Shown here: positions 18,520 through 27,661 of the stretch, in pieces | Position numbering within the stretch: the first letter of the stretch is position 1 | How the letters are laid out: every line of letters begins with the position of its first letter | Source: an uncultured Bacteroidales bacterium | Lineage (GTDB): Bacteria; Bacteroidota; Bacteroidia; Bacteroidales; Muribaculaceae | Assembly: GCA_902784675.1 (NCBI GenBank) | Contig: CACZVR010000024.1 | Span: forward strand, 1-32,506 | Length of the DNA: 32,506 nucleotides | Direction of reading: 5' to 3' | Made by a program: the position numbers and the translations under genes | The notes under the pieces: generated by a model | Databases searched by the model: none | What the model was told of the DNA's origin: nothing | What the model saw: only the letters and a program-made list of their open reading frames with translations

Positions 18520-18553
18520 AAAACTGAAAACTGAAAACTGAAAACTGAAAACT
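18520..18553. repeat. Tandem 7-bp repeat (AAAACTG), about five copies
   Basis: Units of AAAACTG or ACTGAAA repeat without interruption and end 6 bp before the TACCTTTG -7 element at 18560. The array therefore occupies the place where the -33 element of this promoter should be. Confidence 0.8.
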
Positions 18554-23684: not shown

Positions 23685-23823
23685 GAAGAGCGAGGAGAGA
23701 GTAACGAGGAGAGAGAGCAGGAAGAGAGAAGAGAGAGGAGCGAACGCGGATGCTAACTCCTAACTCCTCATTCCTGACTTCTAACTCCTAACTTCTAACT
23801 CCTCATTTCTAACTCCTAACTTC
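23685..23823. repeat. Purine-rich stretch followed by a CTAACTC-type tandem repeat
   Basis: 23685-23743 is almost all A and G (GAGAGA-type). 23753-23823 consists of about nine imperfect units of CTAACTC or CTAACTT. The remainder of 23607-23908 holds no gene that I can support. Confidence 0.65.
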
Positions 23824-23908
23824 AATTAGTTCAATTTGTGTAATTTGTAGTTTTAATGAATCATAGTTTAAAAACAAAAACGAGACCGCTCTCGCTGCCT
23901 CGTTTCTG

Positions 23909-23982
23909 CGCTTCTTCTTGGACTTGAACCAAGGACCCCCTGATTAACAGTCAGATGCTCTAACCAACTGAGCTAAAGAAGC
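23909..23982 (-). tRNA. tRNA-Asn(GTT), copy 2 of the tandem pair
   Basis: A 74-nt cloverleaf on the minus strand: acceptor GCTTCTT/AAGAAGC with discriminator G, D stem GCTC/GAGC, anticodon loop CTGTTAA with anticodon GTT, and T arm CTTGG/CCAAG with loop TTCAAGT. No CCA is encoded. The sequence is identical to the copy at 24021-24094 and it is presumably cotranscribed with it. Confidence 0.95.
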
Positions 23983-24020
23983 AATTTACTCTTAATTAAT
24001 CCTTTTATCATTATGTCCTG

Positions 24021-24094
24021 CGCTTCTTCTTGGACTTGAACCAAGGACCCCCTGATTAACAGTCAGATGCTCTAACCAACTGAGCTAAAGAAGC
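24021..24094 (-). tRNA. tRNA-Asn(GTT), copy 1 of the tandem pair
   Basis: Same 74-nt sequence and folding as the copy at 23909-23982, 112 bp apart start to start with a 38-bp spacer. It is promoter-proximal: a TAACTTTG element lies at 24144-24137. Confidence 0.95.
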
Positions 24095-24281: not shown

Positions 24282-25994
24282 ATGAAGAAGACACTGAGAT
24301 TCCTTGCCTGGACCTGCCTGGCCATTGCGCTGGCCTCCCCCATGGCTCTTGCCGACAACGATAAAGACGTGAATGATGACGCGGCTGTGGCACGCAGTCT
24401 GGATATCTTCAACTCGCTTTACAAGGAGTTGAACACCTTCTATGTCGATACTATCGATGCGCAGAAGGCTATCGAGAATGCCATCAACGCGATGCTCGAC
24501 GACATCGATCCCTATACCGAGTACATTCCCGCCAAGGAGGCCGATGAGTTCATGACCATCAGCACTGGCGAGTATGGCGGCATTGGCAGCTACCTGATGG
24601 AGCGCACCGTGGACGGCAAGAAAGGCGTCTACATCAGCGGCCCCTATGAGGGCAGCCCCGCGGCGCGTGCCGGACTGAAAACAGGTGACCGCATCATCAT
24701 GATTGACGGCGACAGCACTGCCGGATGGGCCAGCGACCAGGTGAGCAAGCGCCTCAAGGGACAGGCCAACACCCACCTGACGGTGACCGTCGTGCGTCCC
24801 TGGGAAGAGGACAGCATCAAGACCTTCTCGTTCAACCGCGAGACCATCAGCGTCAATCCTGTCCCCTACTACGGCGTGACACGCGACAACATCGGCTACA
24901 TCGACCTGACGACGTTCAACGAGAAGTCGGCGCAGCAAGTGCGCGACGCGCTCATCGAGTTGAAAAAGGACCCCAGGGTGAAGAACATCGTGCTCGACTT
25001 GCGCGGTAACGGCGGCGGCATCGTCGAGGGCGCCATCCAGATTGTGGGCTGCTTTGTGCCCAAAGGCACTCAGGTGCTGCAGATGCGTGGACGCGACAAG
25101 TCCAGCGAACGCACCTACAAAACCACCGTTGACCCCGTGGACACCGACATTCCTCTTGCCGTGCTCATCGACGGCGGATCGGCCAGCGCCAGCGAGATCA
25201 CCGCGGGCGCCTTGCAGGATCTGGACCGCGCTGTCATCATCGGCTCACGATCCTTTGGCAAGGGACTGGTGCAGACCACACGCAACCTGCCCTATGACGC
25301 GATGCTCAAGGTGACTATCGCCAAGTACTACATCCCCAGCGGACGCCTCATCCAGGAGGTGGACTATGGCAACCGCAATGCCGACGGCACCTACAAGAAG
25401 ACCACCACCGACAGCACAGCGCGCGTTTTCCACACCGTTCATGGTCGTGAGGTGCGCGAGGGCGGCGGCATCGACCCCGACATCAAAATCGAGCCGCGGG
25501 AGCTCAAGCGCATCGTCTATAACATCATGCGCGACCATTGGGACTTTGACTTCGCAACACGCTATGTCGCACAGCACCATGATATCCCCGCTCCTGCCGA
25601 CTTCGTGATCACCGACGAGATCTTTAACGAGTTCAAGGAGTTTATCGATCCCGCAAAGTTCGAGTATGACAAGGTGTGCGAACAGCAACTCGCCACCCTG
25701 CGCAAGACCGCCACTGCCGAGGGCTATATGAACGACTCCACCAAGGCTGTCTTTGACCACCTTGAGTCATTGCTCAAGCATGACCTCGACCACGACCTTG
25801 ACCTGCATCGTCGCGACATCTCCTATCTGCTGGGTCAAGAAATCATGGACCGTCTTTACTACCAGCACGGACAGGTACAGCACTCCATCAAGGACGACGA
25901 CTACCTCGACAAGGCCAAGGAGATGTTCGACAAATCGGGCGAGTACAACCGCATCCTCAACCTCAAGACCAGCAAAAAAACATCTCGGCGATAA
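24282..25994 (+). CDS. ctpA: S41-family C-terminal processing peptidase
   Basis: A 570-residue exported serine protease of the CtpA/Tsp type that trims or degrades periplasmic proteins from their C-termini. Residues 1-24 are a signal peptide ending in MALA. A helical cap with DDIDPYTEYIPAKE follows, then a PDZ domain (about 95-175; GSPAARAGLKTGDRIIMIDG) and the catalytic core. Ser302 in GGSASASEITAG and Lys327 in SFGKGLVQ have the 25-residue spacing of the family dyad. LDLRGNGGG (238-246) is also conserved. A C-terminal helical region of about 150 residues completes the usual Bacteroidetes length. The stop codon lies inside the first copy of the CGATAA-type repeat array. Confidence 0.94.
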   Translation: MKKTLRFLAWTCLAIALASPMALADNDKDVNDDAAVARSLDIFNSLYKELNTFYVDTIDAQKAIENAINAMLDDIDPYTEYIPAKEADEFMTISTGEYGGIGSYLMERTVDGKKGVYISGPYEGSPAARAGLKTGDRIIMIDGDSTAGWASDQVSKRLKGQANTHLTVTVVRPWEEDSIKTFSFNRETISVNPVPYYGVTRDNIGYIDLTTFNEKSAQQVRDALIELKKDPRVKNIVLDLRGNGGGIVEGAIQIVGCFVPKGTQVLQMRGRDKSSERTYKTTVDPVDTDIPLAVLIDGGSASASEITAGALQDLDRAVIIGSRSFGKGLVQTTRNLPYDAMLKVTIAKYYIPSGRLIQEVDYGNRNADGTYKKTTTDSTARVFHTVHGREVREGGGIDPDIKIEPRELKRIVYNIMRDHWDFDFATRYVAQHHDIPAPADFVITDEIFNEFKEFIDPAKFEYDKVCEQQLATLRKTATAEGYMNDSTKAVFDHLESLLKHDLDHDLDLHRRDISYLLGQEIMDRLYYQHGQVQHSIKDDDYLDKAKEMFDKSGEYNRILNLKTSKKTSRR

Positions 25995-26114
25995 CGCGAT
26001 TTTTCCGATAATGTGATTTTTTGCCCAAATTTTTTGCCGATAATGTGATTTTTCGGGGAAAAATCTTCCCGATAATGTGATTTTTTGATTGTTTTTGCTG
26101 CCGATAATGTGATT
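25989..26114 (+). repeat. Array of five CGATAATGTGATT repeats, last four at 32-bp period
   Basis: Copies of CGATAATGTGATT(TTTT) start at 25989 (variant CGATAACGCGATTTTT), 26006, 26038, 26070 and 26102. Start-to-start distances are 17, 32, 32 and 32 bp. The 13-17 bp core is kept and the 15-19 bp between cores differ. All copies have the same orientation. The first contains the stop codon of the protease gene; the last ends 12 bp before the ATPase start at 26127. No comparable array was noticed elsewhere in the window. Confidence 0.9.
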
Positions 26115-26126
26115 CATCCATTCTAT

Positions 26127-27581: not shown

Positions 27582-27589
27582 AATTCTGG

Positions 27590-27661
27590 TACTCCCGCTG
27601 GGAATCGAACCCAAATCTAAGGTTTAGGAAACCTCCATTCTATCCATTGAACTACAGGAGC
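27590..27661 (-). tRNA. tRNA-Arg(CCT)
   Basis: A 72-nt cloverleaf on the minus strand: acceptor GCTCCTG/CGGGAGT, anticodon stem GAGGT/ACCTT with loop TTCCTAA (anticodon CCT, reading AGG), T arm TTGGG/CCCAG with loop TTCGATT, and discriminator A. CCA is present in the DNA directly after it (27589-27587), unlike the tRNA-Asn genes. It lies between secDF and a strong terminator. Confidence 0.93.

Follow-up and report, generated by a model that had tools for sequence, protein, structure and literature searches.

Phased direct repeats on the promoters of PDC-S01 ATPase genes form a candidate autoregulatory operator

Genes for ATPases of the PDC-S01 branch, a common candidate defence family, carry direct repeats with a step of mostly 32 or 33 bp that overlap the core promoter. 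As far as searched, this array is an undescribed promoter architecture, real and widespread, and comparison of promoters and proteins suggests that it is probably an autoregulatory operator to which the ATPase itself would bind cooperatively. It was recognised in a 32,506-bp stretch of DNA from an uncultured Bacteroidales bacterium of the Muribaculaceae (contig CACZVR010000024.1), the whole of which is referred to here as the window.

In the window, CGATAATGTGATT occurs as four exact copies at constant 32-bp steps between the gene of an S41 protease and that of the ATPase (Table 1). A sequence-only reading of the window had counted five co-oriented copies, which is right for the four exact ones, but the first of the five contains two mismatches and lies 17 bp ahead of the first exact copy, outside the 32-bp register. 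The boundaries given in that reading were accurate: this degenerate copy overlaps the stop codon of the protease gene (TAA, 25992-25994), and the array ends 12 bp ahead of the ATG of the ATPase gene (26127). The 200 bp ahead of the ATPase gene have a lag-32 self-match score of 31.5, whereas none of 1000 shuffled versions (first-order Markov) exceeded 16.5, and the array is thus far above chance expectation. A search for CGATAATGTGATT clusters through the genome of origin (2.70 Mb, 85.98% complete) returned one further exact copy, solitary and on another contig, and five solitary copies with one mismatch; none of these extra copies forms a second array in the 85.98% complete genome, so that random arrays elsewhere, which would have weakened the initial reading, were not found.

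Table 1 Features of the window around the repeat array and the ATPase gene
Feature	Position	Strand	Remark
7-bp tandem repeats (CTAATGC, AAAACTG and CTAACTC types)	838-894, 18520-18553, 23753-23823		between genes or at gene ends
Two tandem tRNA-Asn genes	23908-23982, 24020-24094		upstream of the protease gene
S41 C-terminal processing protease	24282-25994	+	homology to relatives stops just ahead of the array
Degenerate copy CGATAACGCGATT	25989-26001	+	2 mismatches; period 17; overlaps the protease stop codon
Phased copy 1, CGATAATGTGATT	26006-26018	+	exact match
Phased copy 2, CGATAATGTGATT	26038-26050	+	exact match
Phased copy 3, CGATAATGTGATT	26070-26082	+	exact match; upstream of the presumed -7 box, register as in orthologues
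Presumed -7 box TGTTTTTG	26090-26097	+	presumed from sequence comparison; close orthologues L050, L051 and L053 have TATTTTTG here
Phased copy 4, CGATAATGTGATT	26102-26114	+	exact match; near the expected start of transcription, or within the leader
PDC-S01 ATPase, 446 aa	26127-27467	+	Pfam AAA_14 and DUF4143; PADLOC PDLC04786
tRNA-Arg gene	27587-27661		behind the ATPase gene

The ATPase had been described as an orphan, a term to be qualified, since the protein is already a known phage-defence candidate: it matches the PDC-S01 models of PADLOC, best PDLC04786 (E 3.5e-150, residues 1-440). The accessible part of PMC12988326 traces PDC-S01 to a preprint by Payne et al. (2024), ranks it as the fourth commonest defence type across prokaryotes, describes it as an ATPase fused to a member of the PD-(D/E)XK superfamily, and treats the PDCs as unvalidated, with validation pending for most. 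In the accessible part of PMC13356809, PDC-S01 is the commonest individual locus in rumen genomes. The family was also matched in archaeal control genomes.

By sequence, the window ATPase has no real match among solved structures (13 listed, best E 0.19) and no separate nuclease domain match in Pfam. In its AlphaFold2 model (mean pLDDT 90.8, pTM 0.90), a winged-helix part is predicted at about residues 235-311, as read off the secondary structure, followed by a predicted PD-(D/E)XK nuclease fold at about residues 313-446. In an alignment of 66 relatives, G31-K32, D94-E95, E344 and K386 are invariant, and D371 and E384 are nearly so. Taken together, the AAA_14/DUF4143 assignment, the conserved E344-D371-E384-x-K386 and the model point to a fusion of an ATPase with a PD-(D/E)XK nuclease. 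The best Foldseek match of the model is the archaeal ATPase 2qen, with a TM-score of 0.43 over the query, and further matches include Orc1/Cdc6 on origin DNA (2qby), several ORC chains and the maltose-system entry 8bob, whose matched chain we take to be MalT. Since the TM-scores are low, the fold kinship is one of domain plan, not of detail.

To follow the array beyond the window, close homologues were collected by protein alone (identity of 45% or more, N-terminus complete). A window duplicate (L015) and loci with an incomplete N-terminus or too little upstream sequence were left out; removal of near-identical upstreams then reduced the 68 close loci to 61 with distinct upstreams, the window included. 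Two to five copies of the core GGAAWWWTGTGA are present in 60 of these 61 upstreams; the exception, L036, has its own, different repeat instead. In all, 198 core matches were obtained where Markov controls averaged 9, and 60 loci have two or more cores where the controls averaged 0.8, with a motif model that was fitted on the same 61 loci that it scored. The expectation that orthologous ATPase genes would have the array and keep its step was therefore borne out: of the 138 spacings between neighbouring copies, 99 measure 32 bp and a further 28 measure 33 bp, and across the homologous loci the cores are kept while the spacers vary, as in the window. The same core is common to hosts from Bacteroidota, Bacillota and Treponema, including Bacteroidales, Clostridia and Bacilli, which are mostly metagenome bins, so that individual assignments, for example that of one Saccharibacteria bin, may be in error; Prevotella disiens (L114) is an isolate among them.

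A motif-free test, in which the best self-match in the 200 bp upstream was sought at lags of 20-60, gave a lag of 31-33 in 51 of the 61 close loci and of 32-34 in 43 of 48 distant loci (about 29-41% identity). The ten close loci below the threshold count against the operator, though all of them except L036 hold cores. At lags of 30-36, 5 of 80 control upstreams taken from other ORFs were positive, as were 2 of 53 downstream flanks. The five upstream positives consist of an array read from the opposite strand (L059), a truncated ATPase gene behind its array (L111), a probable ATPase remnant recognised by eye (L116), a Fic gene that has an array too, and a weak fifth case. In a held-out set of 19 previously unused minus-strand loci, 18 were positive at lag 32-33 (p<0.05), and the remaining one had lag 33 with p 0.09; four of these loci are near-identical to used ones (L024, L031, L032, L034) and L047 and L048 are near-identical to each other, which leaves 14 non-redundant loci, 13 of them positive. 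Upstream repeats with a step of 31-34 bp are thus present in 107 of 123 non-redundant loci of the PDC-S01 branch, the window included, and the array is a family trait of this branch. When redundant loci were included, a usable repeat was present in 114 of 118, and its spacing was 32 or 33 bp in 240 of 246 cases in a search that admitted steps of 31-34 bp only. The distant paralogues keep the step with other repeat sequences, and a loose scheme, TTCGYTGGAAAAAGTGTA, fits many, not all, of 40 distant repeats.

Mobile elements were sampled with 14 named plasmid and phage records, chosen for host spread out of 71 matches. Nine of these are positive at lag 32-33, from Actinomycetota (Collinsella), Bacillota (Agathobacter), Chlamydiota (Criblamydia), Pseudomonadota (Acinetobacter, Vibrio coralliilyticus, Glaesserella), Fusobacteriota (Fusobacterium animalis), Bacteroidota (Parabacteroides) and one phage record. 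Against the operator, this lag is not significant in the other five, from Ruminococcus albus, F. vincentii, Vibrio sp. St2, a B. thetaiotaomicron plasmid and Vescimonas (lag 42); likewise, the phased array is absent in the relatives L118, L132, L138 and L147, and L136 has a lag of 44. By eye, an inverted repeat lies ahead of the gene in L132, L138 and L147, in the last as a long palindrome containing AAAAATGTGAG, and is perhaps an alternative form of operator in these three.

The sister branch PDLC04787 (L274-L303, same order) served as a negative control with 29 loci, L287 being too short. None of the 29 is significant at lag 31-34, whereas 15 have some significant lag, 14 of these at 39-42 bp; several of these upstream repeats look palindromic by eye. 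The two PDLC04787 members of the window's own genome have a lag of 40 (L019, p 0.005) and no significant lag (L016, p 0.12), and its PDLC04790 member also has no significant lag (L014, p 0.34). The step of 32-33 bp in one branch against 39-42 bp in PDLC04787 indicates that the pitch is apparently set by the protein branch. The pattern is weaker in a PDLC04788 set from the same phylum, in which 7 of 16 loci are significant, all at 32-33 bp; the nine non-significant ones, some of them with probably misassigned starts, count against the operator reading. Fic genes (L053:3342-4631, L324-L351) match SoFic (PADLOC PDLC03963); their promoter repeats are often palindromic by eye, and a lag of 33-34 bp is significant in 9 of 27 tested upstreams (L350 left out). 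Phased promoter repeats may thus be common to several single-gene defence candidates.

The position of the array on the promoter was read in two host groups. Among 35 loci from outside Bacteroidota, 29 have a -10-like hexamer, in 22 of them exactly 12 nt past the core start (GGAATTTTGTGA-TATAAT), a register that is partly built in, as the final two motif columns overlap the first two hexamer bases, which counts against it. Hexamers resembling -35 boxes, 16-18 bp upstream of such -10 sites, score 3.69 of 6 on average against a background of 2.63 (26 sites, no significance test). Among 26 Bacteroidota loci, TAnnTTTG is present in 25, in 18 of these 19-22 nt past the core start, and 13 of the 26 have the next core 10-12 nt downstream of where the -7 box starts. 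The window is the sole one of the 26 without an exact TAnnTTTG; its -7 box is presumed to be the sequence listed in Table 1, a weak match that counts against the operator. Most loci with readable boxes have a fixed distance between box and repeat, with one copy between the -35/-33 and the -10/-7 boxes. A repeat inside the polymerase footprint of two promoter types points to repression.

Arrays also occur without an ATPase gene. A strict two-copy pattern was found in 7 of 198 family genomes, beside the ATPase in three and not beside it in four. Comparison of G168 with a relative showed that nearly the whole ATPase gene has been lost while the array and its flanks were kept, and this orphan array was clearly left after gene loss. 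Further signs of loss behind a kept array are what L116 and L111 look like: on the reverse strand of L116 near 4170, an array is followed by an apparent short ATPase N-terminus and an acetyltransferase-like gene, and in L111 near 1950-2030 by an ATPase without its N-terminal part. In IMG/VR, eight stretches have two-copy GGAAWWWTGTGA arrays, two of them beside an ATPase and six (five distinct: L192, L197, L191/L196, L194, L195) not; the array precedes tRNA genes in L192 and L197, and in L191 it adjoins six copies of a second, ATATGACGGAAT-like repeat family on the opposite strand. In genus g16, a marker gene was found in six of eight genomes, the site was readable in four and an array was present in two, G038 and G059. 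These arrays, of two and four well-kept copies (L204, L205), occupy the same chromosomal place near a gene that resembles a response regulator by eye; no ATPase was found in the fetched stretch, nor any relative that has the ATPase at this place. The g16 array may be a remnant or a functional site, and the remaining orphans may be remnants or decoys. Since these arrays have no gene, an array can persist without use for an ATPase gene, which counts against the operator.

These observations bear on whether the array might instead be a loading or substrate site at which the AAA+ ATPase-nuclease homes, cleaves or is stored as inactive enzyme, as with Orc1/Cdc6 or DnaA at origins, any effect on transcription being secondary. 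A fold like that of Orc1/Cdc6-DNA complexes, a conserved nuclease-type site, the joint travel of array and gene, and the orphan arrays seen in contigs of hosts and phages agree with such a site. It is nevertheless unlikely, as the array occupies the promoter side, in a mostly constant register with the promoter boxes, the downstream flanks do not exceed control level, and the G168 array is intact though nearly its whole gene is gone. The sequence-only reading had named an autoregulatory operator and a substrate site of the nuclease side by side; the operator is favoured by the repeat copy that separates the core promoter boxes in hosts of two different promoter types, and the substrate site found no support.

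The flanks of the array in the window were compared with related loci. The neighbouring protease gene is present in 56 of 61 same-genus genomes searched, the window's own included. In 29 other protease loci (69-90% identity), the left flank was matched in 27, in 25 of them up to 25960-25980 and in two to 25967, and the right flank was matched in none of the 29. The next gene after the protease was readable in 6 of 25 loci and alike in four. An empty site was thus not encountered; rearrangement and simple insertion are equally likely. The joint movement of array and gene, the end of window homology 9-29 bp ahead of the array and the arrays left behind after gene loss would also fit repeats that are mere by-products, either slippage-type duplications or remnants of mobile-element ends, without regulatory use. 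Such an origin is very unlikely, since the cores are conserved between differing spacers, 127 of 138 steps are 32 or 33 bp, the step recurs across unrelated repeats, and a different step is kept in PDLC04787.

The repeats are also specific to these genes. The motif of one paralogue is nearly restricted to such promoters: of its 15 near matches in six genomes, 13 belong to arrays ahead of these ATPase genes. Repeat likeness has a median score of 10.4 within the same protein clade across phyla (668 pairs) and of 6.3 between paralogues within one genome (17 pairs; Mann-Whitney p 0.0009, pairs not independent), and repeat similarity rises with protein identity (Spearman 0.515, pairs of 95 loci). 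The repeat sequence therefore tracks the protein, not the host. Among 1405 flanking ORFs of at least 35 aa from 62 loci, 50 of which have at least 1 kb on each side, no family other than ATPase pieces recurs in more than four loci, and the 214 ORFs of at least 90 aa likewise include no conserved neighbour. The private motif, the repeats that follow the clade and the lack of a partner gene make a host factor or a partner gene unlikely as binder, and the simplest candidate would be the ATPase, whose fold is a DNA-binding one. The least probable of the alternatives is that a host activator or nucleoid protein binds ordinary sites recruited many times, as the AT-rich cores and their TGTGA, presumably similar to a CRP half-site, might suggest, because one core serves Bacteroidota, Bacillota and Treponema hosts, paralogues in one genome differ, and the motif is nearly absent elsewhere in seven genomes tested. 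Within the protein, windowed identity was compared with repeat similarity: no domain was clearly singled out as the specificity part, the partial correlation being near zero in the winged helix and highest, about 0.24, in a helical region around residues 171-215, an outcome that counts against the operator.

Other readings were dismissed: a CRISPR array by cores of about 13 bp that are only partly conserved, gaps of 19-20 bp and the position on the promoter (no cas gene was recognised by eye among the window's ORFs), CRISPR-like, iteron-origin and riboregulator readings by an array that overlaps the promoter, mostly ahead of the expected transcript start, and toxin-antitoxin autoregulation by the missing conserved partner gene of the two-gene operon it would require.

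Under the autoregulatory operator, the ATPase would bind the repeats of its own promoter, probably via its winged-helix part. The spacing of about three helical turns would align several subunits on one face of the DNA and allow them to assemble cooperatively, presumably under the control of ATP, and the copy between the -35/-33 and -10/-7 boxes would block RNA polymerase and hold the gene low. Removal, titration or switching of the protein would lift the repression, as might happen when a phage infects the cell or when the gene enters a new host. A bolder and rather doubtful combination is that PDC-S01 loci are self-addressed switches, in which a STAND-like ATPase-nuclease polymerises on its own array, at the branch pitch of 32-33 or about 40 bp, silencing its gene and parking the nuclease in an inactive state, until infection pulls the protein off; orphan arrays of phages would then be titrating decoys. 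A private phased operator that travels with its gene across phyla would be a first handle on PDC-S01, bearing on how the gene is silenced, how cross-talk between paralogues is avoided, which DNA is recognised and how a reporter could show switching. About a hundred natural pairs of protein and site would moreover be available for learning the DNA specificity of AAA+/winged-helix proteins.

The window protein and its relatives match the PDC-S01 models and combine an ATPase with a PD-(D/E)XK part as in the accessible text of PMC12988326, but promoter repeats are unmentioned in the accessible parts of that paper and of PMC13356809. No account of ATPase-linked promoter arrays appeared in the accessible text of the literature searched, a search whose reach did not extend to preprints and most subscription journals. 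In the undescribed system proposed by the initial reading, then, the promoter array is new as far as searched, whereas the ATPase is already PDC-S01. The nearest mechanism found is that of RptR, which in the accessible part of PMC12255303 is a 9-kDa homodimer that represses a defence island by binding several direct repeats overlapping the -10 box, 9-bp repeats with TAGCTA, two copies of which are needed for full repression. Both cases combine a defence locus with direct repeats over the core promoter. Unlike RptR, a separate small repressor, the ATPase has no conserved partner gene among ORFs of at least 35 aa in 62 loci, and its core GGAAWWWTGTGA is longer than the RptR repeat and recurs at a 32/33-bp step. 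With Orc1/Cdc6 and ORC, the predicted model shares an AAA+ domain plus a winged helix, as reflected in the Foldseek matches; to our knowledge, those proteins have no nuclease domain, and their repeats lie at origins, whereas the array described here lies on the promoter of a single gene. STAND regulators of the MalT type assemble on repeated sites, and MalT, an activator, is not known to contain a nuclease domain. An ATP-driven oligomer on repeated sites is the mode suggested here as well, in line with 8bob among the fold matches, but in contrast to activation by MalT, the position of the array inside the core promoter suggests repression.
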